From positions 27,640,485 to 27,704,484 of the forward strand of contig NC_134027.1 of the NCBI RefSeq assembly GCF_964204645.1: a DNA stretch of 64,000 nucleotides, given 5' to 3'. Below, piece by piece: positions 337 through 44,923 of the stretch (position 1 is the stretch's first letter; each line of letters begins with the position of its first letter). Both the position numbers and the translations under genes were made by a program. The DNA comes from Tubulanus polymorphus (Eukaryota > Nemertea > Palaeonemertea > Tubulaniformes > Tubulanidae). The notes below the pieces were generated by a model. That model did no database searches, was not told the origin of the DNA, and saw nothing but the letters and a program-made list of their open reading frames with translations.

Positions 337-3300
337 GATTTTATTCTTTTCGTTAATAGCCATAGAATAGATCGTTATAAACATGAAGTTTTAGCGAGAG
401 AAAGATTAACAGAGCGGACCGGTAGAAAATACAACGCGGATCAGTTCGAGGAAGTTCCGGCTCCGATACTGAATAAATCTGATGACAACTTTCTAGAATT
501 ACAAATTGATATCGTTCATCAGATGATTAAACTTCATCAATTGGAACGAGAGGTAAAATACCATAAATAAAACAAGAATTCATCAAAGATTTAGTTAATG
601 TTTTGGTGATTTATCAGTTCGATATGCTTTCTCTATTCCCTACTGTTAGTGTTACAACTTCGTTCTTATAGTTTTATTAGTTATAAACATCTACAATATT
701 GAAACATCAACTCGCTATATGCAATAGGTGTGTTCGATTAGACTGACTGAGCTGATAAGTTTGTTAAATAAATTCAACTCACCTGTCACTAAAGGCTGGA
801 CCAGTCGGTCGGACTGAACCCTTCATTTTATTTATCCAACCAAACCTTAAATTCATCATAGTTTTGTCTTTAAGTTGTATTTTTTTCATCTATTAAGTTA
901 AATAGTGATTTGTCTATCAACAACTTGTGATAACATCTGTTTAATATAGCGTTGTATGTATTTCAGTATATGGTTGATTTGTTACAAGGTAGAGAAAGTT
1001 TAAACGCTCATGAATTCGCTCGTAAATCAACCTCCGAACAGCGTCTGACTGAACTGAATATATTACGTAATCAGCGAACTGCTTGGCGCGAGAGTTCATC
1101 AGAAAAACGGGAATCTGAAAAACAACTTAACATTCACATGTTACGCAGAGGTTTGTTGTGTCTATTGTCATTTATTCATGTTGTTTGTTTATCTATTTAA
1201 GACATAGAACTGACCATCTGGGGTTGATTTCATGAAAAAGTTTAAGCTTAAAGCGGTTAAGTTTGAATTGTTGTCGACATTGATAGAAATCATTGAAAAA
1301 TGCAGTAATTAATTTGAAAATATGAGTTTAACTTATTCAAGAAACTGGATCCTGATTACCACCACTATAACGAGCTAAATCTCTCCTAAAAAAATTAAAA
1401 TCAAGAACCAGTGTTGCTCGATATATGTAGTTGGTTAGAGTTTGACGTCAAATTGTTGTGAAACTACTTCAAAATTAGACGCAAAGATAGTGAAGTCTGT
1501 TAAGATTAATTTCATTATTTCATTGTTCTATAGCCGTGGCTTTGTTCTGCGCCGATAAACAAGAGAAGTTAACACTAAATGAAGAAGCATCCAATGAACT
1601 AGACGTCTATTCCGCTGTGTTAGCTGATTTACAACAAAAACAAGATGAACATTTTACTAATACAATTAATGACATCAGAAATATGGTTAGTTTGCATATC
1701 TTGTTATCAATTGAAACCAAGAATCATTCACCAGTAATCAATCTGATTTAGATTTAGTCAGTAACCGGACTGTGGTTTAGTCAGTAACCGGACTGTGGTT
1801 TAGTCAGTAACCGGACTGTGGTTTAGTCAGTAACCGGACTGTGGTTTAGTCAGTAACCGGACTGTGGTTTAGTCAGTAGCCGGACTGTGGTTTAGTCAGT
1901 AACCGGACTGTGGTTTAGTCAGTAACCGGACTGTGGTTTAGTCAGTAACCGGACTGTGGTTTAGTCAGTAACCGGACTGTGGTTTAGTCAGTAACCGGAC
2001 TGTGGTTTAGTCAGTAACCGGACTGTGGTTTAGTCAGTAACCGGACTGTGGTTTAGTCAGTAACCGGACTGTGGTTTAGTCAGTAACCGGACTGTGGTTT
2101 AGTCAGTAACCGGACTGTGGTTTAGTCAGTAACCGGACTGTGGTTTAAGTCAGTAACAAGATTGTGGTATAATTGGTAACAGGACTGTAGTTTTAGTCAG
2201 TAACCTGACTATGGTTTAGTGAGTAACCTGACTATGGTTTAGTTGGTAACCAGACTGCGGATCAGAGGAATCTGATTAACTTTTGCTGATATTAAGAATG
2301 AAAATGAAAATGTTGCTGTATTTTTAGAGTATGAAAGAATTATCGAATCTGCGTCGACATCAACACAAATCGTTCACCGGCACGTATTTAGATAACGTCA
2401 CGGCAGTCGTTTTACAAACTCATGTTTTCACCGATGAAGAGAAAATGTATCTGATGGCTTTAAACAATAAATATGACGCTTTACGCGAGAAATTGATCAC
2501 ATCCGTTTTACAACATGAACATCTTAATTGGAAAAGGTAAATTATTAGTGAGTGTGATGATTGTTATCACTGAGTGTGGAATAAATGATGAACGACCCCA
2601 CAATTGATGATGGCTGAAGTTTGATTATCTTAAGAAATGATATAATGAATTTAACATACCATTAATTGTTCATGATGATCATTATATTGAAATCTTATCG
2701 AAATGATGACTTACACTTAGTAAAATGAATTAGAAATACAGATAGATAGAGACTGCTGCATTCATTATGTGACAACTTGTATCTAATTCATCTGTTGACA
2801 ATTGTTAATCTCGTAGTTTCATTGATTCCAGTTTATCAATCTCTGAACAACAGAAACTTGTAATTCGTAAGAAACTGGAAGAAAGACAATTATATCAAGA
2901 GGGAAAATATGTGGAAATGGAATCTATAGCTGGAAACGTTAAAGATGTATGTACCATTGACAGTACCTGTCTCCGTCTCTGTCTCCGTCTCCGTCTCCGT
3001 CTCCGTCTCTGTCTCCTACCCCATCCCCCATCCCCCATCCCCCATCCCCCGTCTCTGCCTCTGCCTCTGCCTCTGTCCCGGTCCCGGTCCCTGTCTCTGC
3101 CTCTGCCTCTACCTCTGCCTCTGTCTCTGCCTCTGCCTCTGTCCCGGTCTCTGTCTCTGTCTATGTCCCTGTCTCTGCCTCTGTCTCTGCCTCTGCCTCT
3201 GCCTCTGCCTCTGCCTCTGCCTCCGCCTCCGCCTCCGCCTCCGCCTCCGCCTCCGCCTCCGCCTCTGCCTCTGCCTCTGTCCCGGCCTCTGTCCCGGCCT

Positions 3301-6300
3301 CTGCCTCTGTCTCTGTCCCTGTCCCTGCCTCTGTCTCTGTCCCTGTCCCTGCTGTCTCTGTCTTTGTGTCGCTGTTTGAAGATTTGTTTTCAAACGAATG
3401 TTTTATTTCAGTTATTGCCGAATATCAGAAAATTGATGGGTGAAAATCGATTAGAATTTACAAACAGATTAAAATCAAGCACTGAACGTGAAGAACAAGA
3501 AGCCTTGAAAGGAAATTATGTAGAACTTCAATCAGAAGGTATATTTTCAACTAATTAGATTGTGGATATAGTCGATGTTTGTAACCTGTGTTCATTTTGA
3601 AGACTTCTTAGAATGGATTTGAATGAAGAAAACTTACTCTGTATTCAAACCAAAATTATGATGATTTTGAATGGAAAAAAGTATTGTTAAACTTAATTAG
3701 TTTTAGAAAAATGATGCCCCTTTTCTTGCCCCGGGTAAAAAAGGGATGTGTAAACAAATGTACAATTTCATCGGTTATTTCATCGCCCATTTGAGGTGTC
3801 AAGAATTCAGTCAAATTTGAAATTAACAGGTTGCAGATAATAAATTATAAGTATCGGTTGCTCGGTTATAACTGGATATTGTAAATTGTTAGTACTTATT
3901 TCAGAACCGTCCTGGGAGAATTTCAAGTCAGTGAACGCATTCGCCGATCTACAATATCGATACGACATGGAACAAAACGCTTTAATTTCGTGGCTTCGTT
4001 CTCCAGAAATTCGACAACTGGAAACTCGTTCTATGGAAGTAATGTTACTGCGTTTACAGATGGAATGGAAAGCTGCAGAAACAAGCGGTGAATTTTATGA
4101 ATCAGCTGCGATTAGAGTCGGGTTGTTAGAACGTATCAATCAAATCAATAATAACAGGTAACGATGAGTCGGGTTGTTAGAACGTATCAATCAAATCAAT
4201 AATAACAGGTAACGATGAGTCGGGTTGTTAGAATGTATCAATCAAATCAATAATAACAGGTAACAATGAGTCGGGTTGTTAGAACGTATCAATCAAATCA
4301 ATGATAACAGGTAACGATGAGTCGGGTTGTTAGAACGTATCAATCAAATCAATAATAACAGGTAACGATGAGTCGGGTTGTTAAAACGTATCAATCAAAT
4401 CAATAATAACAGGTAACGATGAGTCGGGTTGTTAGAACGTATCAATCAAATCAATAATAACAGGTAACGATGAGTCGGGTTGTTAAAACGTATCAATCAA
4501 ATCAATAATAACAGGTAACGATGAGTCGGGTTGTTAAAACGTATCAATCAAATCAATAATAACAGGTAACGATGAGTCGGGTTGTTAGAACGTATCAATC
4601 AAATCAATGATAACAGGTAACGATGAGTCGGGTTGTTAGAACGTATCAATCAAATCAATAATAACAGGTAACGATGAGTCGGGTTGTTAGAACGTATCAA
4701 TCAAATCAATAATAACAGGTAACGATGAGTCGGGTTGTTAGAACGTATCAATCAAATCAATAATAACAGGTAACGATGAGTCGGGTTGTTAAAACGTATC
4801 AATCAAATCAATAATAACAGGTAACGATGAGTCGGGTTGTTAGAACGTATCAATCAAATCAATAATAACAGGTAACAATGAATCGGGTTGTTAGAACGTA
4901 TCAATCAAATCAATAATAACAGGTAACGATGAGTCAGGTTGTTAGAACGTATCAATCAAATCAATAATAACAGGTAACGATGAGTCGGGTTGTTAGAACG
5001 TATCAATCAAATCAATAATAACAGGTAACGATGAGTCGGGTTGTTAGAACGTATCAATCAAATCAATAATAACAGGTAACGATGAGTCGGGTTGTTAGAA
5101 CGTATCAATCAAATCAATAATAACAGGTAACAATAATTCGTTAAACCCTGATTATAGTTAGTACTGTGTAGGCTAATTGATCACTTGCTTTCTTTACTAG
5201 TGCAATAATATCTCCAGGAGTAGTTTACCTGATGAAGCTACTTTGTGCACTAGTAAAGTAAGCTGAAACCTCAGGTAGTTTACTGATGTCACTAGTAGGA
5301 GGGAAAGCTTGTGATCAGTTAACCTACACAACTGCACCTAAATCCTGTCATCATGATCACTGAGTTGATATCAGGTTTACACAACTCCTCTATAACTAAA
5401 ACTAGAATAAAATATTAACAATAAAACCTATCTATACATCAAAACTGATTAAACAGAAATGTATTTAAATCAAAGAATATTCTAAAAAATGTTCATCCAG
5501 GGGAACTCTATCTTAGTCAGTAACCTGTCTGTGGTTTAGTTTCATGATCCGATATTTTCACAGCCCATCCTAATATAAAAGCTTACCACCAACAATTAGG
5601 TGACTAACTTTCTCTTTCTATGATATTATCTTTCTAGGAAGCAAAAAAGACAAATTGATCTGGCAGCATTACGTAATAAAACCTGGTTACAACGGTTTCA
5701 AGAAGGAACGCAATATGAGAAACAAACAGAGGAAGGATCATATCCACAGGAAGGTACAATATCCGATATCCACTCCTGGCTCTCCCTCTCCCTCTCCCTT
5801 TCCTGACTCTCCCTCTCCTGGCTCTCCTTCTCCCTCTCCTGGCTCTCCCTCTCCCTCTCCCTTTCCTGGCTCTCCCTCTCCCCCTCCTGACTCTCCCTCT
5901 CCCACTCCTGGCTCTCCCTCTCCCTCTCCTGGCTCTCCTTCTCCCTCTCCTGGCTCTCCCTCTCCCTCTCCCTCTCCTGGCTCTCCCTCTCCCTCTCCTG
6001 GCTCTCCCTCTCCCTCTCCTGGCTCTCCCTCTCCCTCTCCTGGCTCTCCCTGTCCCTATCCCTGTCCCTCTCCCTCTCCCTGTCCCTCTCCCTCTCTATA
6101 TCTAGTATAATGTGTTGTATAATCTGTAGGAGATATCCTCGGTTGGAATGAAGCAGTCATATTAGAAATGTGTAAAAAACATTTGGACGAAAGAGAATTC
6201 TTACTACGGTTGCTTCACGATGAAGGATTGTTGGAAGTTGTCGAAGCTGCGAAGGGGATGTCGATCGAAGAGCAACAAAAACGTTTAGTCGTCATTCAAG

Positions 6301-9300
6301 CCAAACACAGACAACTGAATCTAGAAAATACAGGTTAGTTTGATTCGAACTGAATCAGCCACTGTTCTCTTATCAATCCATGGTTCAAATCCATCAGTTC
6401 AAGCCCTCGTGGCTCCCAGGTTTTCTTGTTCAATACTTTTTCTCAGGCCTCAGCTCTTCGTAATCAGGAATATACCTTGAGTCTGCTATTAATAGTTGAG
6501 CTCAGTGGGTTGAGGGGAATCTGCTAATGATGCCCTGAGTGAAGCTCTGAAGGTTGAGGGGAATTTACAAATGATACTGTGAGTGGAGGTTGAGGTGAGC
6601 AGGTTTAGGGATGCAATAAAGTCACAGTTTGATTTCAGTTGCTAGGGAAGAGAACGTGACTCTAGTTGAAGAAGCTGCCGCTATTCAAATAGTTCTGAAA
6701 ACTCAACAATTAATCGTTGAAAATAAATCAGTTCCATCTCACGATGACGTCATCGTAGCGATTTTAACCGATTTACAAGACGAACAAGATATCGAAATAT
6801 CTGATATTATTCAACAAATAGCCAGCATGGTACGTCGTGAATTTTGATATTCTATTCAGTTATTGATGAGATATTCGCTATACACGTTTTTTCCACGTGA
6901 TTTTATTTTAGGGCGAAGAGAAATTAATTGAAAAACGTCGAGAACAGATTAATTTACGTAAGTGGGAAGCTTGCGATAACATCCTGTCCGCCCTCACTTT
7001 ATACATTGGACTCGCCGATGATAACACTCTTATGAAGGTATGTCGTTAATGATAAGGATAAATAGGTGCTGAGAAAAAATTTGATCCTTAAAACGTGGAG
7101 TTGATTTCTGTTATAGAAACTGGATGAGAAATATACGGCTTTAAGAGAACTATTGATGCAGACTTTACTGAGTAAAACAACTGATTGGAAAAATCTGAAA
7201 GATTCAGAAAAACAAAAGAATTTGGCTTTTCTGAAACACAGGGATAGAAAACTACGTTCATGTGGTAAATATAGACTTGTTCATCAGTTCTGAACCCAGT
7301 TCCACAGTTCTGAGCCCAGTTCCACAGTTCTGAACCCAGTTCTGAACCCAGTTCCACAGTTCTGAACCCAGTTCCACAGTTCTGAACCCAGTTCTAGTCC
7401 TGTTTCCACAGTTCTGGACTCAGTGGTACAGTTCTGGACCCAGTTCCACTGTTGCGTTTTTGTGGATCTTGGGGAACTGTGTAACTGGGTTCTGAGGAAC
7501 TGGGTTCATAGATGTGCTGAAATAAGATGTGATTTGATTTTATCAGGTAAGATATCTGAATTGAAGAATCTATTGAACGATGATGTGGAATTGGATGAAC
7601 CTTTATTAGTTCTACTCGGTTACAATAAAGCCGTCTGCAAACAGAAACGACAAGATAAACTGAAACAAATGAAAAAAGAGGGCGCTATCGTCGATGAGAA
7701 TGCTTTAATCGTAATTGATGAAGATGAATTGAAAGATGTTTCATCTTTAGTTGAATTAGCCGTAAGATTTCAACAAGAACAAAATCTACTCTTGGCACAG
7801 ATGAAAGGTATGGTATACCTTTACAGATCCACTCCCTCCACTCCCCTTTTAACACTCCCCTCCTTACGCTCCCTAAAACTCCCTCCACTCCTCTCCTAAC
7901 ATTCCCTCCACTCCCTCCATTCCCCTCCTAACACTCCCTCCACTCCCTCCTAACACTCCCTCCACTCCTCTCCTAACATTCCCTCCACTCCCTCCATTCC
8001 CCTTCTAACACTCCTCTCCTAACACTCCCCTCCTAACACTCCCTCCACCTTCCTCTATTCCCCTTCTAACCCCTACCCCTCCACTCCCTCCACTCCCCTC
8101 CTAACCCCTACCCCTCCACTCCCGCTACTTACACCTTACATGAATACGTACGTACTTTATGAATGACCCCTCTATTTGACTGGAACTGAATTTTTCATGT
8201 ATTTCAGGTTTTGATGGATGTGTTTTTGGTGAATTTGAACGTTGTAGATGTTTGTTAGAATTGACTTCAGAATCGAACAAAGCTTCGATCCACAGTAACA
8301 TATACAATACTTCATTAGACCTCGGTTTAGCTGAACGCAAGTTTACCAAAGACAAAATTGCGTAAGTTTCTTCAATCGAAAACATTCCAAATTCATGAAA
8401 TTAGTAACTGACTATAGATTCTGTTCATTGCAGGCTGAAAAATGACGAAAGACGACAGTTGAATTTGGCTAAAAACGTTATAGACTTCGGTTTTCAGCGT
8501 CGAGCTTTAAAATCTGATGATTTCAAAGATAAAGTCGTCACATCTTCAAATATTACTGAGTTACAAGTAAATAATCAAGCAAAATATCAATAAATCAGAG
8601 AATCAGATTCTAGAGATTTTAATGAGATCATTATTGAATACTGTATAATTGTAGGAAGCTTGTTTGAAGTTGTTTGAGAAATGTCAATCACGTGAGGTGG
8701 ATTATTTGTGTTTATTCATGGCCACCGATGATAATGAACGGTTATCACTGTGGGCGAGTTCAAGCACTGATTTACAGTTAGAGGATAAACTGAATGAATT
8801 AAAGAGAAAACGAAATAGTATCATCAATAATGGTTTGTAGGAATCTCTCATTCTCTCTCTCCCTCTCACCTCTCTCTTCTCTCTCTCATCCTCTCCCTTC
8901 TCTTTCTCAATCTCTCTTTCCCTTCTCTCTTTCATTCTCTTCTTCTTTCTCTCCCTCTCACCTCTCTCTCATTCTCTCTCTCCCTCTCACCTCTCTCTCA
9001 TTCTCTCTCTCATCATCTCCCTCCCCCTTCTCTCACCTCTCTCACTCTCTCCTCTTCTGTCTCTTCCTCTCACCTCTCTCTCATCTTCTTTCTCCTCTTA
9101 ATCTCTCTCACCTCTCTCCTGTCTCCTTTCTTAATCTCTCACTGGTCATTCTTTCACTCCTCTCTCTCCCGCTGTCTCCTCCATCTCAACTCTCTCTCTC
9201 TCTTACTCTCTTCTCTCCTCTCATTCCAGTCAGCGTTATAAGAACTGATTTATAATTATGTGAGGTTTCTTTCAGGAAACAACATGAAACAGAATCATGA

Positions 9301-11156
9301 AGTAATTCAGGAAGCCATTTCAATCAGTTCACAGATGAAATTACGTGATTTAAACCGACGTTCAACTGATAACAATCTGACGAAACGCGATAGTTTTGAC
9401 GCATTGATGATCGCTGTTTTAGAACTACACAGAAACAAAATCATTGAATTCATTGATTCACTGCTGTCAACTGTAAGTAGAATAGAAAGAGCATTTGATT
9501 TTTCATGTGAATATGTGATACATGACTTTATTTCGTTTTTCAGAGCAAAGAGAATCTAATTGAGTTACAAAAGTCTCTGATTCAAGAACGTAAGTCTCCT
9601 AAACTGGACGGTATCGCTACTGTAGTATTCCATACAATCATTGATGATAATTTGACTGAGGAAGAAGCGATCGCTCGAGCTGTAACTGGAAAATACGACG
9701 CGCTTAAAGAGAAACTTCTCATCGAAGCTTTAATGAAACAGGTGAATTTATAGTTTCATAAACATCATCTTCGGAATGATATCACGTGAATGAATACTAG
9801 CGTAGAAACAATTGGTGAGTGAATTGAATACTAGCGTGGAAACAATTGATTTGTTTTGAATCTAGCACGGAGAGGCGGAATGGAAGAGAATGTCTGATTT
9901 AGAACGACAGAAGAAAATCATGGAAATGAAACTCAAAGAAAAACAGTTAAGAAAGGAAGGAAAACTGGATGAATTGAACGCATTGATGGGTGAGTTTGAG
10001 CCGGGTTGGTTTAAACGGTGTTCGAGCCGGGTCGGTTTAAACGGTGTTCGAACCGGGTCGGTTTAAACGGTGTTTGAGCCGGGTCGGTTTAAACGGTGTT
10101 TGAGCCGGGTCGGTTTAAACGGTGTTTGAGCCGGGGTTGGTTTAAACGGTGTTCGAGCCGGGTCGGTTTAAATGGTGTTTGAGCCGGGGTTGGTTTAAAC
10201 GGTGTTCGAGCCGGGTCGGTTTAAACGGTGTTTGAGACGTTTTAGAATTTTGTTTATCTATTTTTAGATGAAGCGATGAAAGATCAAACCGTATTGAATG
10301 AATTAATGAAACTGAACAAACAAGAACAAGAAAGAAAACTGAAGGAGAGGCTTGAGAAGAGGAAGCTACGTCTGGCTAGTGGTACGTATTCAACAGACGA
10401 CCTTCAATAAACATCATAGTTCAATGAATTGAATACCTAGAGATTTATTCGTTTTTCAGGAATGACTGAAGATGAATGCGATAAACTAGAAATAGAGGAA
10501 ACTGAAGAGGAAGAAAAACAGAGAAGAAGGAATATTCTGGATGATCTGGATAAACGTTGCGATGAGGTTTGTGTGTTTCACAGTTTAGTCGAACCTGAGT
10601 TTAGATTCTATTAATAGAATGTTGAGGATAATGATCCAACATAAACGAGTTTGAATGTTTTCCTTCAGCTAGTAGTTTATTTCAATATTGGGACTAATAT
10701 CCTAGGGCCGGTTTTATAGACCGGTATTACCTTTAACCCGCGGGCTAACTCAATTTTTTTTCAATTAACTTAGCCCCCGGGTTAAAGGTAATACCAGTCT
10801 ATAAAACCGGGCCCTAATGTATATTCCTGAAGATAACTATCAGGATAAAGTTGAAAGATATCGAATAAACTCCTCGCTCACGGGAATATTTCAGATTGTT
10901 TTTAATCACGTTGTGGGATTTTATATTGAAACGTATCGAATTGAATTCAGGAAAGAGATGAATTGTTGCGTCAACTGCTCGATCAGGACGGTAAATATTC
11001 CTCGGAGAAACAACGACAAGCCGCGTTGGCATGGTTACGTATGGAACAAAGGAAACTGTTACAAGAGGATCAGCTTGATACGGCTGTGTTACTGATGGCT
11101 AACATGCGTGATACAGATAACTCGTGAGTGAAACAGCTGCTGCTGCTGCTGCGCTG

Positions 11157-11187
<31 letters not shown>

Positions 11188-14100
11188 CGCCGCCGCCGCT
11201 GCTGATTATTCTAATGAGTTTCTATTTTGTATTTCAGACGTGAAGCCGATCGTCTCAGACAGGAACAGTTGGCACGGCAACGTCTCGCAGCGCGTCAGAA
11301 ACAGCAACGAGAAAAACGTACAACAATGGAAACTGTATCGATATCGGACGTGGATGATAGCGACATTGTCGGGTTACAAGAGGCACTTCTCGCTGAGATT
11401 GAACAGAAACATTTGGAAGAACGAGATTTCTTTTTAAAGGTCTGCATCTCATTCCACAATTACGTTCAGTTCAGGTCGAAATTTGTTGATTTCCAATATT
11501 TCAATCCAAGAGTTTTACAACCTCAAAATTCAGAAAAGTTTGTAACTAAATCATTTCGAAATGAATGTAATATTCGAACTCTGAAATAAAACTGTAAAAC
11601 TGTCTCGTTTTACAGCTGTTTGTTTCTGCTGTGTCTTTCACATTCAGTCGTGTTTATATTTTAGCTGTTAACCGATGTGACAAACGATAAAGAGAAGTTC
11701 GGTAAAGGAATGAACGAAGATCTCAGACAAGATCGTTTATTCGAGTTGGAACAATATCATAAACTCTGGTTACAAGACGTTTCTCAAGATCCTAAAGAGC
11801 AACTCTTACTGTTCAAGGTACTGACGATTGTAACATTGAATCAGAGTTTAATTGTGAATATATTTGAATAAACGGTTTGTATTGTTGTCTCACGCAGGAA
11901 GCTGCCACTCTACAAATACAGAGTAAACAAGAAAAACAGATATCATCAGACAGTAAAGGGTTAACGGATGAACAGTTACAAGTAGAATTTTTAGTTCGTC
12001 TTCAAGAGCAACAAGATCTTGAAATCTGTAATGTTATGGATAATTTAAGTTCTCAGGTATGAGTTGAATTCCTTATGGTTTAGAAATACTGATATTTAGT
12101 TTATTACAGTCAGAGCCCAGTTTCACAGAAATGTTGTTGAACTCAAATTTTTAGCGGTTACTTCATGATTTCAATGGCGGCAACAATTCAAACTGAACTG
12201 TTTTAGGCAGAAACTTTTCCATGAAACCCCGAGCCAGCTAAAAAAAACTCTATATATATCCACCACATTTACGACTAATGTTTTTTAGAAGAATTATCAA
12301 GCGTTTTGGATCTGAATATTATTTTAAGTAACAATGAACTAAATTCTCACAATTGGAATTAAAAATTTGGGTGGAAAATCGAGGATAGTTGTGGATATTT
12401 GAGGGTAAACTGTATTTATGTTTTTAGACTCCTAATTTGCTGAGAGAATTAGCATCGGCTCAAACGATATCGAGACAAAACCAGTGGAATACAAATATCG
12501 CGGCTGTTATTGTAAAATCTGAGGGAAGAAAAGTTAATGAGAGTGAAGAGAGTTTAACCGATGAACAACAACATGTCGTTAAAGCTCTTGAAGAGAAATA
12601 CGACGCCATGAAAGATAAAATACTGATGGAGGTGATTTAGATGTTCATTCTCTGTCTCGATCATTTTACATGTAATATCCGTCTTGGAATTTTTGACCTC
12701 TGCCGGCAAAAGTTTAAACCTGATTCTTTTATGGATTGATAATTACACTAATTCTTGACGCTCTGTTCATTATATAGTTTCTATATTCATCAGAATTATG
12801 TCTTGATATGCTTTGACCTCTGCCGGCTTAAAACTGCAACTTTGGTCCATGCATACTTTTATAAATTCGCTATTACACAAATTCTTGACGCTCTGCCCGT
12901 TATATAGAATTATAAGCGGTGATTTATGAATGTTTCTCTCAATGTTTCAGGCTCTGATGCAGCAAGCCGGCGACACGGAATGGAATCGATTGTCGGAGAA
13001 AGAACGTCAGGCGAGATTGATCAAATTAAAACTTGAAGAGAAAAAACTACGTCACGAAGGTCGAGAAGATGAAGCTGTTTCTCTGATTTCAAACATGCTT
13101 CAAAATGAACGAGGTATTGAAGATATTTCATACTGATCTGTAACGCGTCGGGTTCTGAGTTAAATTTCTGATTGATATATCGATATTTTCATGAATAGCT
13201 ATGAATGATTTACTTGGTTCGACGAAATCCGACCAGAAAATGAATTTGGAGGAAAGATTAAATAGATTGAAAGAACTGAAGGCTGAAAGAGAAACTGCAG
13301 GATTGAGCATCGATGAAGAAATATTGAATGAACTGATTGAAACTGAGGAGAATGAAAAACTTAAACCAAAGGTAGAAATAACTGCTATCAAAAATACAGT
13401 AACCTACTCGATAGTGTCGGGTCTATAAACATTTCACCCAGTTCAGAATCAGGGAATTAGGAAATTTGTAAAATCACTGAATTTGCACTGAAGTTTATAC
13501 CGAGTTGATTGGTTCTCAGTAAGGATGAGTGAACTGTTAACCATTGATGAAACGATCTGAGGAGTTCGTGTTGGAACAATTGTTTTAAATCCAACACTAA
13601 GAAATGAAAAAAAAGTTTTCTTGAGCTAGTAGTTTATTTAATAATCAAGGGGAGGAACGTTTTAATCTTGATGAACTACTTACTCACAATCCGTGTTGTA
13701 ACGATGATATGAAATCCAACATTAAATATGAAAGTACGTAATGTATCCTTGGGCTAAAAGTTCATAGAAAATATTCATTCAAATGATTCTATTATCTTCT
13801 GAAATACTGTATCCCAATAAACTAACTCATATTGTACTTCATTTCGGAATCATTTTAAACTTTATTGTTCATTCTAATTCAAGGATTCTATAATAAGGGT
13901 CTCAACTGTTTTTCAAAAGTTGACACGAAATATTCATTTCACTCTCGTAGAATATCTTAGAAAATCTGCAGTTTCACTTCGAAGATGAGAAAGCTGCGTT
14001 GTTAGCGTCGTTGAACGCGCAGACGGACAAACTAGCAGCAGATCGCGAGCGTCAATTAGCAATGGCTAAATTACGCCGCGATCAAAAACGAATTCAACTG

Positions 14101-17100
14101 GAAGATCGCGTTGAGAGTGCGGCCGTTTTGATCGCTGAATATCATAACATCGAAGAAAACCGTGAGAAAGGGTACAAAAAATACTGTTTATTTCATTAAT
14201 TGACTTGTATTTTATCTACAGTCAAACTGGGATTAGTTATTGTTTGTTATTTATTTATTCATCGTATCAGTTCATACAAAAAAGTTAGAAAGATCGCGTA
14301 AAAGTTTAAAGAACATGAAATACAAATTAATTGAAAGAAGACATAAATATTACAAGTTACAAATGTAACCAAGTTATCATAACTTGAATTATTGTTATTT
14401 TTGAGTCCACTTTGTATTTGCGATATTCAAATTACTCATTGTAAGTTGTCATTCAAGTCATTAACATAATGATTTTGACTGTATTATAGTTTGGTAGCGG
14501 AAAGGGAGAGACAGAGAGCTTTAGCTAAAGAGAGATTAGAGGCTCACAAACTGAGACGTCAACAAATTCAACAACAAGAGGAGGAAAAAATACAGAAAAA
14601 CAACATGACCGAAGAAATGTCTAAATTAGAAGCGGCTCAAAATAAAATGAAAAATCTTCTATTGGCTTCAACATCGTTAATGTTGAACGGATCAAAGGCT
14701 TTGAGTGAAGATATTCTGGATGAAGTCGATAAACGACACAGAAAGGAACGAAATACTTTGATTCGAATTATCGATTCTCTGAATAAAGAAGTGAATTTGC
14801 TCTCAGATGCAGCTCTTCTCGATATCGAGGTAACGATATGTTCCTTCTCTATCGATACGTTACAGATAGTCCATGATATTCATCAGTAATATTCGTTTTT
14901 TTTCAGGATGTAAAAGTGAACCTTGAAAAGTTGCGACAAGAACATTCAAAATGGAGGACAGCTGTTGATGTGATTGATAGCGGCACAGACGAGTCAAGAA
15001 TGAAAAATATAGATGAACAAATTGATATATTAAAACAAGCACTGGTATTCCGTGTGACGGGTTAGTATTCTGGGCCCAGTTCCACAGTTGTGAGTTAGAG
15101 TTAACTCCGAGTTAAAGTTAGTTTATTTTCAATGATTTAACTCAGAGTTAAATCTTAACTCGGAACTGTGGAACTGGACCCGGTATTACTGGTTAGTGCC
15201 CTGTATTACCAGTTAGTTATTACAGATAACCTTTCATGAAACTTGACTCACTATTTTTTACTTGACTTTACTTTATCAATGTGTTAAACATCTATTTTAT
15301 GCTGATTTTAAGCTGAAAGTAAGAGGCAGGGTAAGAGTAGTGATGAACTATATGTAGCGTTGTTGGCTGATTTACAAGGAAAACAAGAAGCTGAATATAT
15401 GGTGATGTCTCGGGTTACTGAAGATCAGGTATAAACCATTCTTCATCCATCAGTAAATCAGTTTATAACTTATCATGAAATATTCTATAATTTTCTGTTT
15501 AGGAGGAAAAAATCCTTGAAAAACTCAAGTTAAATCAACAACAGATGATTAAAGATGGTTTGTTGGATAACGTGGCTAAAACAATATTCACAATGCTTGA
15601 AGATGATGCGTCTCTTCCAGACTTCGACGCTGCCGAAACTGAGTTCGAACTTCAACTGGAGAAAGAGAGAGAAGCCGCTTTAGCAGACGGTTAGTTTCTG
15701 AAAATTCATCGCGATATCGAGAGAATTTCAGATTCTTCGATTTCTAGAATTATCGAATCTTTTTACAGGACAAAATAAAAACCAAAATGTGGATGAAATC
15801 TTGGCGGAGTTGAATTCTCAACAGGAATTAAAACGTCAAGCTTTCCTGCAGTCTAAGATCGACCAGAAATATAAAGCACTCGCTGAATTAGAGAACAAAC
15901 GACTTGCGAGAGATTTACAGGAGTATGAAAATATCGCTTCAATGCAAATATTGAAACTCTGTGAAGAGAATGAACAACAAGTTTTATGTAGTAATACTGA
16001 ACAGCAGTCTAAACAATCGAGTCTTGTGAGTAGTAATTCTTTGCAGTGTCTTTGTTAAGTTAAGAAAAGTTCATAATTCTGATATCAACTTTTAGTGCTG
16101 ATAATTGATCGCCCTAAAGTGCTGGAGATAACTTGTAAATTTTAAAAGATTCCACCCAATTGTGTTGTATTACGAGCATACTGCTATAGTGTGTCTACAC
16201 TGCAGTGCGGTGTATGACAAGCATACCAATATAGTACGTCTACACCACAGTGCGGTGTATCATTAGATACTAATATTTTACCACGTTTGACTGGGCTCTT
16301 TCAATAGAGATAAAAACTAATTACTAATTATTTCAATACACCACAATGCAGTGTACTAGCGAAGTCTATCATCAATTGATACACTACACTGTGATGTAGA
16401 TCATCTACATCATAGTGCGGTGTATCAATTGATGATAGACTGATGCACTGAATGTGTATTTATATTTGTTTAGCTCGAACAACGACTCGCCGCGAGACGA
16501 CAACAGAGAAGGAAACACGATGATGAACGAAAACTGAACGAACAACTTGAAAATGATTCGAGCAGCGCTGGAGGAACTCCTGGAGGAACTCCGAGTTCTC
16601 TCCGAGACATCGATTCACCGGTATGTGTATCAGTCAGAGACCTCTGTAGGTAATAACCGGAACCGAAATGAGAATTTATTTTGAATGTTTATAGATGGGC
16701 CTTCAACGAGAGAAGACAGCTATCACCGGTCTAGATCTGGATGAGGAAAAGAGTAAAGAAGTTTATACTCGTCTAATGGGAGAACAAACTAGACTTCATA
16801 ACAAAAAATACCGTGAACAAGAACGTCAAGAGAAGAAGGTGAGATGAGAATGACGACAGCTTTTAGAGGAGTTAAAGAGATTTTAAAACGTGTTTAATTA
16901 ATGATTATTTCTAGTTGCAAGAAGCGATTGAACGTCGCAAACAGAAACGTGAAACAGATGCTGTAGATGTTATACTGAAGGGTGAACACGCCAAGAATAT
17001 TCTAGAACAAACTCAAAAGGTCAGTTTAACTGAATTGATAATACAGTCAAACTCACTAGTATCGTCATCTAGTATAAATAGCCACATTACTGAAGTCTGT

Positions 17101-17743
17101 TTTGACATTACTGAAGTCGTTTTTTCCAGGGAAGTGTAATGAGATTACACTTCCCTGGTATTTCCAAAATGTAAGTCATCATTTGGATAAGACATCAACA
17201 TAATGAGTATCACAACTATGAAGATTTAAGCGGCAGAAAGTTTCACTTTATCAAATATCAAACAGTGACGCGAAAATCATCTGAAAAATTTTTTTTTTAC
17301 TGATTTCAAGGATGAACGAGAAAGACAAATGACGATGATTAAAAACCGTGTAACTCGTGTTCGTTACGAGCGTACGATGACAATGAAAGCAAAATCAGCA
17401 CAAATCGCTCAACAATTCGATTACATCATCGATACAGATAGCAGTAATATGACTCAGGATGAGAAAATGGCTCGAGCCGCTAAACTTATGGAGAGTAAAT
17501 TTCGTCAAGAGGCTGAAGATGTAAAAGAAGGAAAGAAAGAGGTGAGAGTTGTTTGTAAAAATGAATTATCAACGATCGGTTTATAATCTATTTCATATTT
17601 TGTATTTGTTTGTTTTAAAGATGGTTTTAGCTTCGGACGAAGAGGAAGAAATTCCGTTAATGAGTGAAAAAATACGATCGGATAGAAATATTAAACAGAG
17701 GAGAGAGGAGAGACGTCAAAAACGGGATACAGAAAATAAATAA
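337..17743 (+). CDS. Giant modular coiled-coil protein, 39 exons visible, 3' end of gene (5' end off window)
   Basis: Exons: 337-552, 967-1150, 1534-1685, 2328-2536, 2832-2946, 3412-3538, 3905-4157, 5638-5753, 6130-6333, 6639-6829, 6912-7037, 7117-7264, 7547-7807, 8208-8361, 8434-8566, 8655-8832, 9276-9472, 9544-9741, 9866-9989, 10268-10381, 10460-10566, 10951-11123, 11238-11439, 11665-11817, 11898-12056, 12428-12631, 12951-13113, 13199-13371, 13951-14171, 14490-14829, 14907-15060, 15313-15428, 15503-15689, 15769-16025, 16474-16620, 16695-16838, 16915-17019, 17311-17541, 17621-17743. Every junction has GT..AG and the phases agree throughout (6,759 nt, 2,252 residues, stop TAA). The protein is rich in E, K, Q, L and R heptad-like helices, with no signal peptide or membrane helix seen. 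Blocks such as LADLQ..Q and KYDALREKL recur, marking about five tandem units of roughly seven exons. The tail is strongly charged. No family is recognised with confidence; a cytoskeletal, ciliary or scaffolding role is only a guess. AATAAA overlaps the stop region. Confidence 0.88.
1747..2262. repeat. 23-bp minisatellite, ~22 copies
   Basis: Unit GTTTAGTCAGTAACCGGACTG plus TG. It is almost perfect to 2148, then decays toward 2262. It lies in the intron between exons 3 and 4 of the coiled-coil gene. A stray relic of the unit appears near 5515-5540. Confidence 0.97.
2966..3362. repeat. Pyrimidine-rich hexamer array (CTCTGC/CTCCGT/CTCCGC)
   Basis: Degenerate CTCTGY and CTCCGY hexamers, with a short CCCCATC run near 3020-3050. 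It fills the intron after the exon ending 2946 and before the acceptor at 3411. The open frames through it are low-complexity artefacts. Confidence 0.95.
4120..5134. repeat. 51-bp array of exon end plus 5' splice site, 20 donors
   Basis: Each unit carries the last ~38 nt of the exon ending 4157 followed by GTAACGATGAGTC. Donors recur every 51 bp from 4158 to 5127 with no indels, and a few single-base variants such as AAAACG for AGAACG. Only the first donor keeps the protein open, because reading on gives AGG then TAA. Confidence 0.97.
5165..5330. mobile_element. MITE-like inverted-repeat element, 166 bp
   Basis: The left end TGTGTAGGCTAATTGATCAC pairs with the right end GTGATCAGTTAACCTACACA with few mismatches. 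CTTTC and GAAAG extend the match, and ACTAGT motifs lie inside. No coding capacity. It sits in the intron directly after the 51-bp array. Confidence 0.7.
5776..6100. repeat. CTCCCTCTCCTGG-type pyrimidine minisatellite
   Basis: Mixed TCCCTC hexamers and CTCCTGGCTC units in the intron after the exon ending 5753. The frame through it encodes a Pro/Ser-rich string, which is a repeat artefact. Confidence 0.95.
7283..7465. repeat. ~20-21 bp array of CAGTTCTGAACCCAGTTCCA
   Basis: Tandem units share the CCAGTTCCACAGTTCTG core also found at 30075-30440, and they match the termini of the inverted-repeat element at 15070-15183. It lies in the intron before the exon starting 7547. Confidence 0.93.
7826..8130. 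repeat. CACTCCCTC/CTAACACTCC pyrimidine array
   Basis: Irregular tandem units CACTCCCTC and CCTCCTAACACTC fill the intron between the exons ending 7807 and starting 8208. Confidence 0.93.
8842..9226. repeat. TCTCTC/CCTCTCACC microsatellite tract
   Basis: A long, impure CT-rich tract in the intron before the exon starting 9276. It has no coding signal. Confidence 0.93.
9992..10236. repeat. 26-bp minisatellite, ~9 copies
   Basis: Unit GAGCCGGGTCGGTTTAAACG followed by GTGTTT. It starts within a few bases of the donor of the exon ending 9989. Confidence 0.95.
10704..10815. mobile_element. MITE with ~45 bp terminal inverted repeats and TA duplication
   Basis: GGGCCGGTTTTATAGAC at the left is mirrored by GTCTATAAAACCGGGCCC at the right. 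The arms continue through GGTATTACCTTTAACCC with few mismatches around a short AT-rich loop. TA precedes and follows the element, consistent with a TA target-site duplication (Tc1/mariner or PIF-type). It is intronic. Confidence 0.8.
11131..11202. repeat. CTG/CCG trinucleotide tract
   Basis: CTG units drifting into CCGCCG, starting 8 bases after the donor of the exon ending 11123. Confidence 0.95.
15070..15183. mobile_element. Foldback MITE with GGGCCCAGTTCCACAGTT termini
   Basis: The left arm GGGCCCAGTTCCACAGTT is matched by the right arm AACTGTGGAACTGGACCC. Inner GAGTTAAC/GTTAACTC-like segments also pair. The same terminal sequence recurs in several arrays and foldbacks in the window. It sits 10 bases after the donor at 15061. 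Confidence 0.75.
16150..16441. repeat. Diverged GTGCGGTGTAT repeats ending in a ~38 bp-arm palindrome
   Basis: Motifs CAGTGCGGTGTAT recur at 16204-16260 and again near 16415. At 16363-16441, AGTCTATCATCAATTGATAC and its reverse complement flank a further pairing stretch centred on TGTAGATCATCTACA, so about 79 bp can form one hairpin. Intronic, and probably a nested or decayed foldback element. Confidence 0.7.
17126..17158. repeat. Perfect 33-nt hairpin CCAGGGAAGTGTAAT..
   Basis: CCAGGGAAGTGTAAT, a 3-nt loop, then the exact reverse complement. The arm sequence recurs as a hairpin at 49915-49945 with a longer loop, so it is probably a trimmed inverted-repeat element. Confidence 0.75.
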
Positions 17744-18425
17744 AATATTTCACAGTACCTGAATTAGTTTCACTGTACCTGAATCAGTTTCACAGTAGCT
17801 GAATCAGTTTAACTGTAGCTGAATCAGTTTCACAGTAGCTGAATCAGTTTAACTGTAGCTGAATCAGTTTAACTGTACCTGAATCAGTTTCACAGTAGCT
17901 GAATTAGTTTCACTGTACCTGAATCAGTTTCACAGTAGCTGAATCAGTTTAACTGTAGCTGAATCAGTTTAACTGTAGCTGAATCAGTTTCACTGTAGCT
18001 GAATCAATTTCACTGTAGCTGAATCAATTTCACTGTAGCTGAATCAGTTTCACAGTAGCTGAATCAATTTCACTGCAGCTGAATCAGTTTCACAGTAGCT
18101 GAATCAGTTTCACAGTAGCTGAATCAGTTTCACAGTAGCTGAATCAGTTTCACAGTAGCTGAATCAGTTCCACAGTAGCTGAATCAGTTTCACTGCAGCT
18201 GAATCAATTTCACTGTAGCTGAATCAGTTTAACTGTAGCTGAATCAGTTTCACAGTAGCTGAATCAGTTTAACTGTAGCTGAATCAGTTTCACTGTAGCT
18301 GAATCAATTTCACTGTAGCTGAATCAATTTCACTGTAGCTGAATCAATTTCACTGCAGCTGAATCAGTTTCACAGTAGCTGAATCAGTTTCACAGTAGCT
18401 GAATCAGTTTCACAGTAGCTGAATT
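17744..18425. repeat. 20-bp minisatellite, ~33 copies, directly after the coiled-coil gene stop
   Basis: Unit GAATCAGTTTCACAGTAGCT with sub-variants (AACTGTAGCT, CACTGCAGCT, CAATTTCAC). It begins within 15 bases of the stop codon and probably occupies the 3' UTR or flank. Confidence 0.95.
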
Positions 18426-18510
18426 AGTATCTCTATATTTACTAGAATATCTATTTACTAAATCATTGTAATATGATTTTATGCTAAATTTAGAAAATTA
18501 TTTTCAATCA

Positions 18511-20776: not shown

Positions 20777-20862
20777 ATTTTAACAGCGACAGCAGCAGCG
20801 GCAGCAGCAGCGGCAGCGGCAGCAGCAGCGGCAGTAGCAGCAGCGGCAAGGGCAGCAGCAGC
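20777..20862. repeat. CAG/CGG trinucleotide tract upstream of GPCR gene 1
   Basis: AGCAGCAGCGGCAG-type units within 15 bases of the start codon, likely 5' UTR. The paralogue has a shorter CAG tract at the same place. Confidence 0.93.
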
Positions 20863-21580
20863 AAGGGCAGCAATCAGCTCCCAGTGAAATAACAAGAGAT
20901 ACTTCAGATCGCGTTCAACTCTCTTCAATGGTGCAATAATGCTAGTCTGTAATCATCTATCTACACTGTGCAGGAAATTGTCATGCAAGAAACTTTCTGA
21001 AATAGTTTTTATTCACTGTCTCCAATAGAATAGAATGTATTCTACATATCTAAGATTTGTTTGTGAAATAGTAGAATTCTGTATATTTTGAGTCACGCTA
21101 TATCAGCGAGAGTGGTGAGAGTCACGCTATATCAGCGAACTAGCGGTGGTTTCAGGTGACTAGTAGTAAACTTCTATATAATTTGAGTCACGCTATATCA
21201 GTGAATTCACTTGACTTTACATCAGGCGATTATCATTACTTGACTTTAGAAATAAATCATAATTAGGTCTCTCTTTTGGAAACTTAGTCTTTGGTTGAAT
21301 TAAGTATTTGTTCTATCATTTTTTTAACAGTTGAAGTCAAGAAATTTACTTCAAAAGAATGAATCCATATCAACGATGACCAGATGACGTCATTTGGAGT
21401 TCCTGTGACGGGAATTTCTGTGACCGTGTTTTAGTGGTAACGGTTTAGGTACACAATGGATGCTGAGTCGTCACAATAACTCGATTTCTATATTTCAACA
21501 GAATAATATTTTCTTCCAACCCGCGACTTGTTTAGTCTTGTTTTACATGAATAATTATTCACGGATTCTCTAGGATTTCT

Positions 21581-39901: not shown

Positions 39902-42900
39902 GGGGGAGAGAGAGAGGGGAGAGAGAGGGAGAGAGAGGGGAGAGAGCCGATGGAAAATGAGAGTGGTTATTGACGGAAAGGGCTGTAGCTAAGATGCTCG
40001 TTCTCTATTGATGTTGTGTCATTATCAACCTACAGAAAAAAGGCTCAAGTACCAATAATCAGAGGACACGATCTCACACCAGACGGTGACTATCAGAGAA
40101 GCTCTACCAGATCTCTATTAATCCGACTTATGACATATTTTTTGCTATCGTCAAGACACATGGGTTGTATGACGACTAGTCTGATTATTAGATATTGGCC
40201 TTAAGTCGATGTTCGTTAGAGACAGATCCCGGCGTGTGGTTGATACAGAGTCGTGTCATAACACGTCTCCTACTTCATTACTGATAGAATCAGCATCAGC
40301 TGCAGCAGCAGCACCAGCAGTACCACCACCAGCACCAGTATCAGCACCACCGCCAGCAGCACCAGCAACCACAGCACCACCGCCAGCAGCACCAGCAGCG
40401 GCACCAGCAGCCACAGCACCGCCACCAGCACCAGTACCAGCACCATCACTAGCACCACCACCAGCAGCACCAGCAGCCACAGCACCACCGCCAGCAGCAC
40501 CAGTAGCGGCACCAGCAGCCACAGCACCAGCAGCCACAGCACCAGTAGCGGCACCAGTAGCGGCTCGAGCAATACGTGTTCAATACTCATTTGAAAACTT
40601 CCACCTTACAATAAACACCATGGTTACAATAGAAACCATAGAATTACTGAGATCGACGACAAGTTGAAAGAAATTAGTTGCACCAGAACCGTAAACATAC
40701 AGTGTCAGTTAGGGGGGAGCACCAGAACCGTAAACATACAGTGTCAGTTAGGGGAGCACCAGATCCGTAAACATACAGTGTCAGTTAGGGGAGCACCAGA
40801 ACCGTAAACATACAGTGTCAGTTAGGGGGGAGCACCAGATCCGTAAACATACAGTGTCAGTTAGGGGGGAGCACCAGAACCGTAAACATACAGTGTCAGT
40901 TAGGGGGGGGGGCACCAGAACCGTAAACATACAGTGTCAGTTAGGGGGGAGCACCAGAACCGTAAACATACAGTGTCAGTTAGGGGGGGAGCACCAGATC
41001 CGTAAACATACAGTGTCAGTTAGGGGGGAGCACCAGAACCGTAAACATACAGTGTCAGTTAGGGGGGAGCACCAGAACCGTAAACATACAGTGTCAGTTA
41101 GGGGGGGGGGCACCAGAACCGTAAACATACAGTGTCAGTTAGGGGGGAGCACCAGAACCGTAAACATACAGTGTCAGTTAGGGGGGGAGCACCAGATCCG
41201 TAAACATACAGTGTCAGTTAGGGGGGAGCACCAGAACCGTAAACATACAGTGTCAGTTAGGGGGGGGAGCACCAGAACCGTAAACATACAGTGTCAGTTA
41301 GGGGGAGCACCAGAACCGTAAACATACAGTGTCAGTTAGGGGGGGGGGCACCAGAACCGTAAACATACAGTGTCAGTTAGGGGGGAGCACCAGAACCGTA
41401 AACATACAGTGTCAGTTAGGGGGGAGCACCAGATCCGTAAACATACAGTGTCAGTTAGGGGGGAGCACCAGAACCGTAAACATACAGTGTCAGTTAGGGG
41501 GGAGCACCAGAACCGTAAACATACAGTGTCAGTTAGGGGGGAGCACCAGATCCGTAAACATACAGTGTCAGTTAGGGGGGGAGCACCAGAACCGTAAACA
41601 TACAGTGTCAGTTAGGGGGGGGGGCACCAGAACCGTAAACATACAGTGTCAGTTAGGGGGAGCACCAGAACCGTAAACATACAGTGTCAGTTAGGGGGGA
41701 GCACCAGATCCGTAAACATACAGTGTCAGTTAGGGGGGAGCACCAGATCCGTAAACATACAGTGTCAGTTAAGGGGGGGAGCACCAGAACCGTAAACATA
41801 CAGTGTCAGTTAGGGGGGAGCACCAGATCCGTAAACATACAGTGTCAGTTAGGGGGGAGCACCAGAACCGTAAACATACAGTGTCAGTTAGGGGGGGAGC
41901 ACCAGAACCGTAAACATACAGTGTCAGTTAGGGGGGAGCACCAGAACCGTAAACATACAGTGTCAGTTAGGGGCGAGCACCAGAACCGTAAACATACAGT
42001 GTCAGTTAGGGGGGAGCACCAGAACCGTAAACATACAGTGTCAGTTAGGGGGGAGCACCAGAACCGTAAACATACAGTGTCAGTTAGGGGGGGAGCACCA
42101 GAACCGTAAACATACAGTGTCAGTTAGGGGGGAGCACCAGAACCGTAAACATACAGTGTCAGTTAGGGGGGGAGCACCAGAACCGTAAACATACAGTGTC
42201 AGTTAGGGGGGAGCACCAGAACCGTAAACATACAGTGTCAGTTAGGGGGGAGCACCAGAACCGTAAACATACAGTGTCAGTTAGGGGGGAGGCACCAGAA
42301 CCGTAACTATACAGTGTCAGTTAGGGGGGAGCACCAGATCCGTAAACATACAGTGTCAGTTAGGGGGGAGCACCAGAACCGTAAACATACAGTGTCAGTT
42401 AGGGGGGGAGCACCAGAACCGTAAACATACAGTGTCAGTTAGGGGGGGAGCACCAGAACCGTAAACATACAGTGTCAGTTAGGGGGGAGCACCAGAACCG
42501 TAAACATACAGTGTCAGTTAAGGGGGGGAGCACCAGAACCGTAAACATACAGTGTCAGTTAGGGGGGGAGCACCAGAACCGTAAACATACAGTGTCAGTT
42601 AGGGGGGAGCACCAGAACCGTAAACATACAGTGTCAGTTAGAGGGGAGCACCAGAACCGTAAACATACAGTGTCAGTTAGGGGGGAGCACCAGAACCGTA
42701 AACATACAGTGTCAGTTAGGGGAGCACCAGAACCGTAAACATACAATGTCAGTTAGGGGGGAGCACCAGAACCGTAAACATACAGTGTCAGTTAGGGGGG
42801 GGCACCAGAACCGTAAACATACAGTGTCAGTTAGGGGGGGGGCACCAGAACCGTAAACATACAGTGTCAGTTAGGGGGGAGCACCAGAACCGTAAACATA

Positions 42901-44923
42901 CAGTGTCAGTTAGGGGGGGGCACCAGAACCGTAAACATACAGTGTCAGTTAGGGGGGAGCACCAGAACCGTAACTATACAGTGTCAGTTAGGGGGGAGCA
43001 CCAGAACCGTAAACATACAGTGTCAGTTAGGGGGGGGGCACCAGAACCGTAAACATACAGTGTCAGTTAGGGGGGAGCACCAGAACCGTAAACATACAGT
43101 GTCAGTTAGGGGGGAGCACCAGAACCGTAAACATACAGTGTCAGTTAGGGGGGGGGGCACCAGAACCGTAAACATACAGTGTCAGTTAGGGGGGAGCACC
43201 AGATCCGTAAACATACAGTGTCAGTTAGGGGGGAGCACCAGAACCGTAAACATACAGTGTCAGTTAGGGGGAGCACCAGAACCGTAAACATACAGTGTCA
43301 GTTAGGGGGGAGCACCAGAACCGTAAACATTACAGTGTCAGTTAGGGGGGAGCACAAGAACCGTAAACATACAGTGTCAGTTAGGGGGAGCACCAGAACC
43401 GTAAACATACAGTGTCAGTTAGGGGGGGAGCACCAGAACCGTAAACATTACAGTGTCAGTTAGGGGGGAGCACAAGAACCGTAAACATACAGTGTCAGTT
43501 AGGGGGGAGCACCAGAACCGTAAACATACAGTGTCAGTTAGGGGGGAGCACCAGAACCGTAAACATACAGTGTCAGTTAGGGGGGGAGCACCAGAACCGT
43601 AAACATACAGTGTCAGTTAGGGGGGAGCACCAGAACCGTAAACATACAGTGTCAGTTAGGGGGGAGCACCAGAACCGTAAACATACAGTGTCAGTTAGGG
43701 GGAGCACCAGAACCGTAAACATACAGTGTCAGTTAGGGGGGAGCACCAGAACCGTAAACATACAGTGTCAGTTAGGGGGGAGCACCAGAACCGTAAACAT
43801 ACAGTGTCAGTTAGGGGGAGCACCAGAACCGTAAACATACAGTGTCAGTTAGGGGGGGAGCACCAGATCCGTAAACATACAGTGTCAGTTAGGGGCGAGC
43901 ACCAGAACCGTAAACATACAGTGTCAGTTAGGGGGGAGCACCAGAACCGTAAACATACAGTGTCAGTTAGGGGGAGCACCAGAACCGTAAACATACAGTG
44001 TCAGTTAGGGGGAGCACCACAAGGATGTACAGTTTATCCATTTTACAACCTGGACGGAACAGTTGTTTGTACAGTGGCTTATATTCAAAACCTGTCCAAG
44101 CTACCATTGGGTTCTTACAACTTTAGACCAGTCTAAGATCATTTTACTTCTATAACCAATCTAACTACTTAAGACCAGGCTGAGCTCATCTAGCCTCTAT
44201 AACCAGTTATAACCTGTTATTAAACATTAAGTGTGATGACGGTGCAACTGGGCTCAGAACGAGATCGTTAAACATGATCTCATCAACTCGTTCAATGTAA
44301 CGGCGAGTGTGAGGGTGGATGAGTAACTGGGTCGCGTGGTGGATGAAGAGGGTGGATGAGTAACTGGGTCGCGTGGTGGATGAAGAGGGTGGATGAGTAA
44401 CTGGGTCGCGTGATGGATGAAGAGGGTGGATGAGTAACTGGGTCGGTGGATGAAGAGGGTGGATGAGTAACTGGGTCGGTGGATGAAGAGGGTGGATGAG
44501 TAACTGGGTCGCGCGGTGGATGAAGAGGGTGGATGAGTAACTGGGTCGCGTGGTGGATGAAGAGGGTGGATGAGTAACTGGGTCGGTGGATGAAGAGGGT
44601 GGATGAGTAACTGGGTCGCGCGGTGGATGAAGAGGGTGGATGAGTCGGTGGATGAACTCGGTTAAAGGTTCTCTCATCATACGCGTGTCTGGTGAATGTT
44701 ATATCAATTCTCCGCCAATCAACACCAGCAGAAAATCATCTTCAATATCTTCATAAAAAACACTTGTTCATATTCACTGCGCGGTAGCTTGAACGAGTCA
44801 CGTGGCTAAACACACGAGAACAGAAACGACAAATTACTGTTTTACTAAAAACACTTGGTGTTTTCCGATGTCGAGAGACTCTGGCTGTTCGTTTTTCTGC
44901 TGTTTAGTTGTCATGGGAGTATT

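Follow-up and report, generated by a model that had tools for sequence, protein, structure and literature searches.

A splice donor repeated twenty times in a minisatellite that crosses an exon-intron boundary

Which donor does a transcript use when the end of a coding exon, splice site included, has been repeated 20 times into the intron that follows, and does the length of such an array matter to the gene? These questions are raised by a minisatellite in a long gene that occupies part of the 64-kb stretch of DNA analysed here, referred to below as the window. The features on which the argument depends are as follows.

360 to 17743, plus strand: portion of the host gene that lies in the window, modelled with 39 exons; the start of the first exon is uncertain (337 or 360)
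3905 to 4157, plus strand: coding exon, its last 43 bases being array copy 1; TATTTCAG stands before 3905, and the frame is open with 25 and with 38 joined exons
4115 to 5134, plus strand: minisatellite with a 51-bp unit (43 exonic bases plus GTAACGAT of intron) present 20 times
4158 to 4163, plus strand: first splice donor, CAG/GTAACG, PWM score 3.43, rank 22 among the 25 donors of the gene
4158 to 5637, plus strand: host intron, 1480 bases, the longest among the 38 introns of the gene model
4206 to 5132, plus strand: 19 further donor copies (CAGGTAA at 4206 + 51k)
5638 to 5753, plus strand: next coding exon, preceded by the acceptor TTTCTAG (score 6.13)

Tandem Repeats Finder reported the array at 4115-5131 (period 51, 19.9 copies, 97% matches, 0% indels), and counting in register gave 20 head-to-tail 51-bp units from 4115 to 5134, with no indels and a mean pairwise identity of 0.979. 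CAGGTAA is present in 20/20 units, starting at 4155 + 51k, which bears out the claim of an earlier note on this DNA that a donor had been copied 20 times in perfect 51-bp register. That note had placed the array start at 4120 with about 38 exonic bases; the actual start is 4115, and each unit is composed of 43 coding bases (4115-4157 in copy 1) followed by the first 8 bases of the intron. Over its nine bases, -3 to +6, the donor reads CAGGTAACG in 17 units; units 3, 15 and 20 have CAGGTAACA. There are 12 substitutions among the units, every one a transition, confined to 6 of the 51 unit positions, and three of these six variants are common to more than one copy (position 15 in four copies, 49 in three, 36 in two), as expected if blocks of units get copied. 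The 7-base donor core holds 0/12 of the substitutions, for which P = 0.17 without constraint, a weak test with only 12 substitutions. Folding of about four units as RNA gave nothing unusual (z = 0.11), and a search of the own genome with the array found, among the best candidates scored, matches at the window locus only. A reading of the array as a coding repeat was rejected, since stops occur in all three plus-strand frames of the unit.

The reading frame separates the first donor from the later ones. With 25 exons joined by hand (967-12631), one frame contains no stops, and the others contain 111 and 149. When 38 exons (967-17743) are joined, with donor 1 spliced to the acceptor before 5638, the result is 2188 codons in which the single stop is the last codon (2187 residues). 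Splicing in silico from copy 2 or copy 20 led in both cases to a stop after model residue 347, after ...INNNR, and translating the array in frame places a TAA behind the donor in every copy (AG/G TAA). The predictions that later donors would add AGG-TAA and end the protein, and that the first donor alone keeps the frame, both held, the second among the donors tried (1, 2 and 20), where the frame stayed open with donor 1 only.

The gene model was obtained with our own gene finder, trained on the 25 hand-joined exons, all of which it recovered while adding more; since the training set includes the exon ending at 4157, the finder's preference for donor 1 carries no independent weight. A last exon that it placed at 20787-20887 was considered doubtful, and a subsequent run put the gene end at 17743. 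Four bases past the stop codon (17741-17743) begins another array, with a 20-bp unit in 34 copies (17748-18428). Of the host protein, 1394 residues were searched against Pfam without a match and 525 against PDB sequences, where the only match was at chance level; Rfam had no match in the window at gathering scores. A weak match to an EF-hand (E 1.6e-6, 28.8 bits vs a cut-off of 30) came from an upstream part of the gene, outside the window and predicted by our gene finder only. Elsewhere in the window, exons at 61501-61650 and about 63000-63560 have translations that we take to resemble mitochondrial Xaa-Pro aminopeptidase.

Arrays of at least 60 bases occupy 10 of the 38 introns of the host gene, in which array growth is therefore nothing out of the ordinary. 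Nine of these introns, the one with 4115-5134 included, have the array nearer the donor than the acceptor (9/10; sign test, P = 0.02). The array at 4115-5134 crosses its donor; three others start 67, 106 and 140 bases past theirs, and the remaining six start much closer:

9994-10236, 5773-6096, 7285-7453, 7828-8123, 8844-9222 and 11136-11204: six arrays starting 4 to 20 bases past the donor, with 31 to 93 bases between their ends and the acceptor

To score splice-site strength, we left out the exon ending at 4157 and built the matrix on the remaining 24 donors of the gene. The array donors score 3.43, or 2.99 in units 3, 15 and 20. Donor 1 is weak, as judged by its rank in the gene (22/25) and by the 609 of 4118 GT sites on the plus strand of the window that score at least as high. 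The acceptor before 5638, which sits 506 bases past the array end, is the best in the host intron (6.13), followed by one at 5375 (6.01). As acceptors, the unit AGs reach 2.0-2.8, and the 25 acceptors of the gene span -1.2 to 13.9. The same intron contains an inverted repeat (5187-5263; 18-base arms, 94% complementary), perhaps a small mobile element.

How unusual is a repeated donor? The window contributed 43 arrays to a sample of 79; another 29 came from contig C3, which carries the window at 27640485-27704484 and from which 20 stretches of 10 kb were taken, and stretch L028 supplied the rest. A donor-like site in register that scores at least as high as the array donor, on either strand, was found in 13/79, so a repeated donor-like site is in itself no rarity. 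The strong form MAGGTRA occurred in 1/79, namely 4115-5134. What sets this array apart is that its copy 1 is the end of an exon. The window contains, for example, a 27-bp array (49005-49242) with a donor-like GTG/GTATGT in register in nine copies, beside which we saw no convincing exon. It also contains a 39-bp unit repeated about 85 times at 40680-44019 (95% matches), and arrays are dense in it: 43 in 64 kb near a contig end vs 29 in the 200 kb sampled along C3.

The whole assembly (267.8 Mb, 77 contigs, C3 being 27.81 Mb) was scanned for three strong donors in close order. This gave 359 matches vs 576 for the reversed pattern, that is, no excess of strong-donor arrays genome-wide; both figures are numbers of matches rather than of arrays and are strongly influenced by long arrays. 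Counts from the strong pattern are lower bounds, since the window array itself fails it. Among the matches listed (contigs C1 to C8) we counted 18 arrays and judged by eye the bases upstream of each, mostly 300 to 400 and about 200 for one. A convincing coding exon stood at the array start in two and an uncertain one in one (L038/L055); none was seen in 15. A broader scan, for any array that overlaps a predicted exon, mostly called repeats as exons and was set aside. On C1 to C7, 9 of the 17 strong-donor arrays among the matches listed lie within 2 Mb of a contig end, vs 2.5 expected (P = 0.0003), a test from which the 18th array, on C8, was left out. Two of the arrays found in this way concern us here.

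L030:1490-1762, C1:92235 (near 92.2 kb): second clear exon-boundary array, 31-bp unit, in a biotin-protein-ligase gene
L056:866-3000, C8:1261851 (near 1.26 Mb): third array, on a proline-rich stretch after a good acceptor, units of about 39 bp

In the biotin-protein-ligase gene the 31-bp unit comprises the last exon bases plus CAG/GTAAGA, giving nine donors (eight with CAG, one with GAG), and the next exon is open with donor 1 only (1/9). A protein stitched together by eye matches Pfam PF09825 (E 1e-9) and PF03099 (E 6e-9), both over the cut-off; the exon alone has no Pfam match and a chance-level PDB match, and the downstream piece has no PDB match. The array on C8 has at least 55 CAG/GTGAG donors and runs to the end of the stretch analysed. 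In its proline-rich frame donors 1 to 4 precede the first stop, and in a second open frame donors 1 to 3 do so. The proline-rich exon has one weak Pfam match, below the cut-off; with no Pfam match over it, we grade this locus only as a likely third exon-boundary array.

We think it probable that donor 1 of the window gene is the one in use and that the array is a tolerated structure of the kind called a mirage. A segment straddling the exon-intron boundary would have been duplicated in tandem and then expanded into the intron, probably via slippage or unequal exchange, which fits the variants common to non-adjacent copies. Donor 1 would be chosen in most transcripts, as it is made first and closes an exon of normal size (3905-4157, 253 bases), and the 19 later donors would then lie inside the intron and be removed along with it. 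A later donor used occasionally would produce a message with a premature stop, which would probably be degraded. On this model the array would be mostly tolerated, not selected; a tolerated by-product fits better than an expression tuner with two negative results, namely the lack of a strong-donor excess genome-wide and of any constraint that we could detect in the donor core. Competition between donors could matter nonetheless, given the low rank of donor 1. In human IFI6, according to the cited part of PMC4526556, downstream units serve as donors, which indicates that later copies can be active.

The tuner, which the earlier note had put forward, would have the 19 later donors divert transcripts to premature stops, so that copy number sets protein level, perhaps under selection. 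It keeps a small chance, given that donor 1 ranks low within its gene and that the 20 scores are nearly equal; in addition, a stop follows every later donor and minisatellites vary in length. Against it, the test above, a weak one, detects no constraint on the donor core, the genome-wide count (359 vs 576) shows no excess, and comparable amphioxus arrays are said, in the cited parts of PMC3087553 and PMC3902484, to leave splicing undisturbed. On these grounds we consider the tuner unlikely. If the later donors, chiefly the one nearest the acceptor, were instead the main sites, the protein would end in ...RINQINNNR and the downstream gene would go unexpressed from this transcript. Introns shorter than 130 bases make up 16/38 in the host gene model, which suggests intron definition, under which a donor nearer the acceptor might win. 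However, the downstream frame is open through to the stop at 17743 and would decay if unused, and the exon would lengthen from 253 bases to 1222 at most, so we regard use of the later donors as the main sites as quite improbable.

Recursive splicing, in which each AG/GT of the array would act as acceptor and then as donor and the intron be removed in 51-base steps, draws on the CAG that directly precedes GT in each unit. The unit AGs fall within the acceptor range of the gene, where 3 of 25 acceptors (-1.2, 1.9 and 2.5) are about as low or lower, yet they lack a pyrimidine tract and compare poorly with the 6.13 of the acceptor before 5638; we find this extremely improbable. That the true array is shorter or absent, the assembly being in error, is very improbable in our view: tandem repeats are prone to such errors, but the 12 scattered substitutions among the units and the arrays in other introns of the gene speak against an error here. 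Our preferred account of the locus remains a tolerated array with donor 1 in use.

Two competing donors are a standard laboratory design. The arrays described here form a natural series of 9 and 20 near-identical donors, evenly stepped, with at least 55 in the likely third, and per-donor read counts in such arrays would directly test how strongly order in the transcript decides the choice of donor. The phrase "natural donor-competition experiment", used of the window array in the earlier note, is a fair description, and the biotin-protein-ligase gene has a matching layout. We speculate, giving the idea a small chance, that throughout this recurring series (9, 20 and at least 55 donors) the first of the identical donors is always chosen, with a slight, heritable loss into unproductive message whose size depends on array length. 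The array at 4115-5134 itself illustrates how growth of a minisatellite over a donor can be tolerated.

Precedents for repeats at exon boundaries were found, in the open-access papers searched, in amphioxus, human and potato; the comparisons that follow rest on the cited parts of each paper. Mikl and colleagues (PMC6783452) found the first donor favoured when both members of a tandem pair were equally strong, in a library with donor spacings of 2-77 nt assayed in human K562 cells. The 51-base spacing of our array is comparable, as it falls inside that range, and the same paper describes prior evidence on donor order as conflicting. Human IFI6 (6-16) likewise has a minisatellite that provides several donors at an exon end (title of Turri 1995; PMC4526556), and two of its downstream repeat units act as donors, giving further mRNAs. 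In contrast, the later donors at 4115-5134 run straight into a stop and, judged by frame, are not donors of coding isoforms. Internal tandem repeats at exon-intron boundaries of human segmental duplications are also boundary repeats and can alter splicing, but they are short (mean 30-bp units x 4) and lie in young paralogues (PMC2812944). The case in PMC4974935 likewise involves a duplication across an intron-exon boundary, whereas here the acceptor is 506 bases past the array and the locus shows no new intron position. In intron gain by tandem duplication, donor and acceptor both come from the duplicated segment; we rejected this reading for our locus, as the acceptor before 5638 is outside the array in the model.

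The closest likeness is to the mirages of amphioxus, tandem arrays over exon-intron boundaries (PMC3087553) whose reported host group is the cephalochordates. Their hosts include Adh3, the globins BflGb6 and BflGb9 and troponin C, with imperfect examples in PGBD5 (PMC3087553, PMC3902484). Data on Adh3 and RT-PCR of the globins "suggest" regular splicing without interference from the mirages (PMC3087553), and those of Adh and troponin C are said to yield no aberrant mRNAs (PMC3902484). The array described here differs in its gene, probably in its host animal and in its 20 copies, vs 6 and 3 units in two BflGb6 haplotypes (PMC3087553). It shares with the amphioxus arrays minisatellite-like copies across an exon-intron boundary, many of whose units carry AG/GT (PMC3087553, PMC3902484). 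Each unit at 4115-5134 consists of an exon end and an intron start and contains the AG/GT splice signals, and the array is a further case of this already described class, the mirage.
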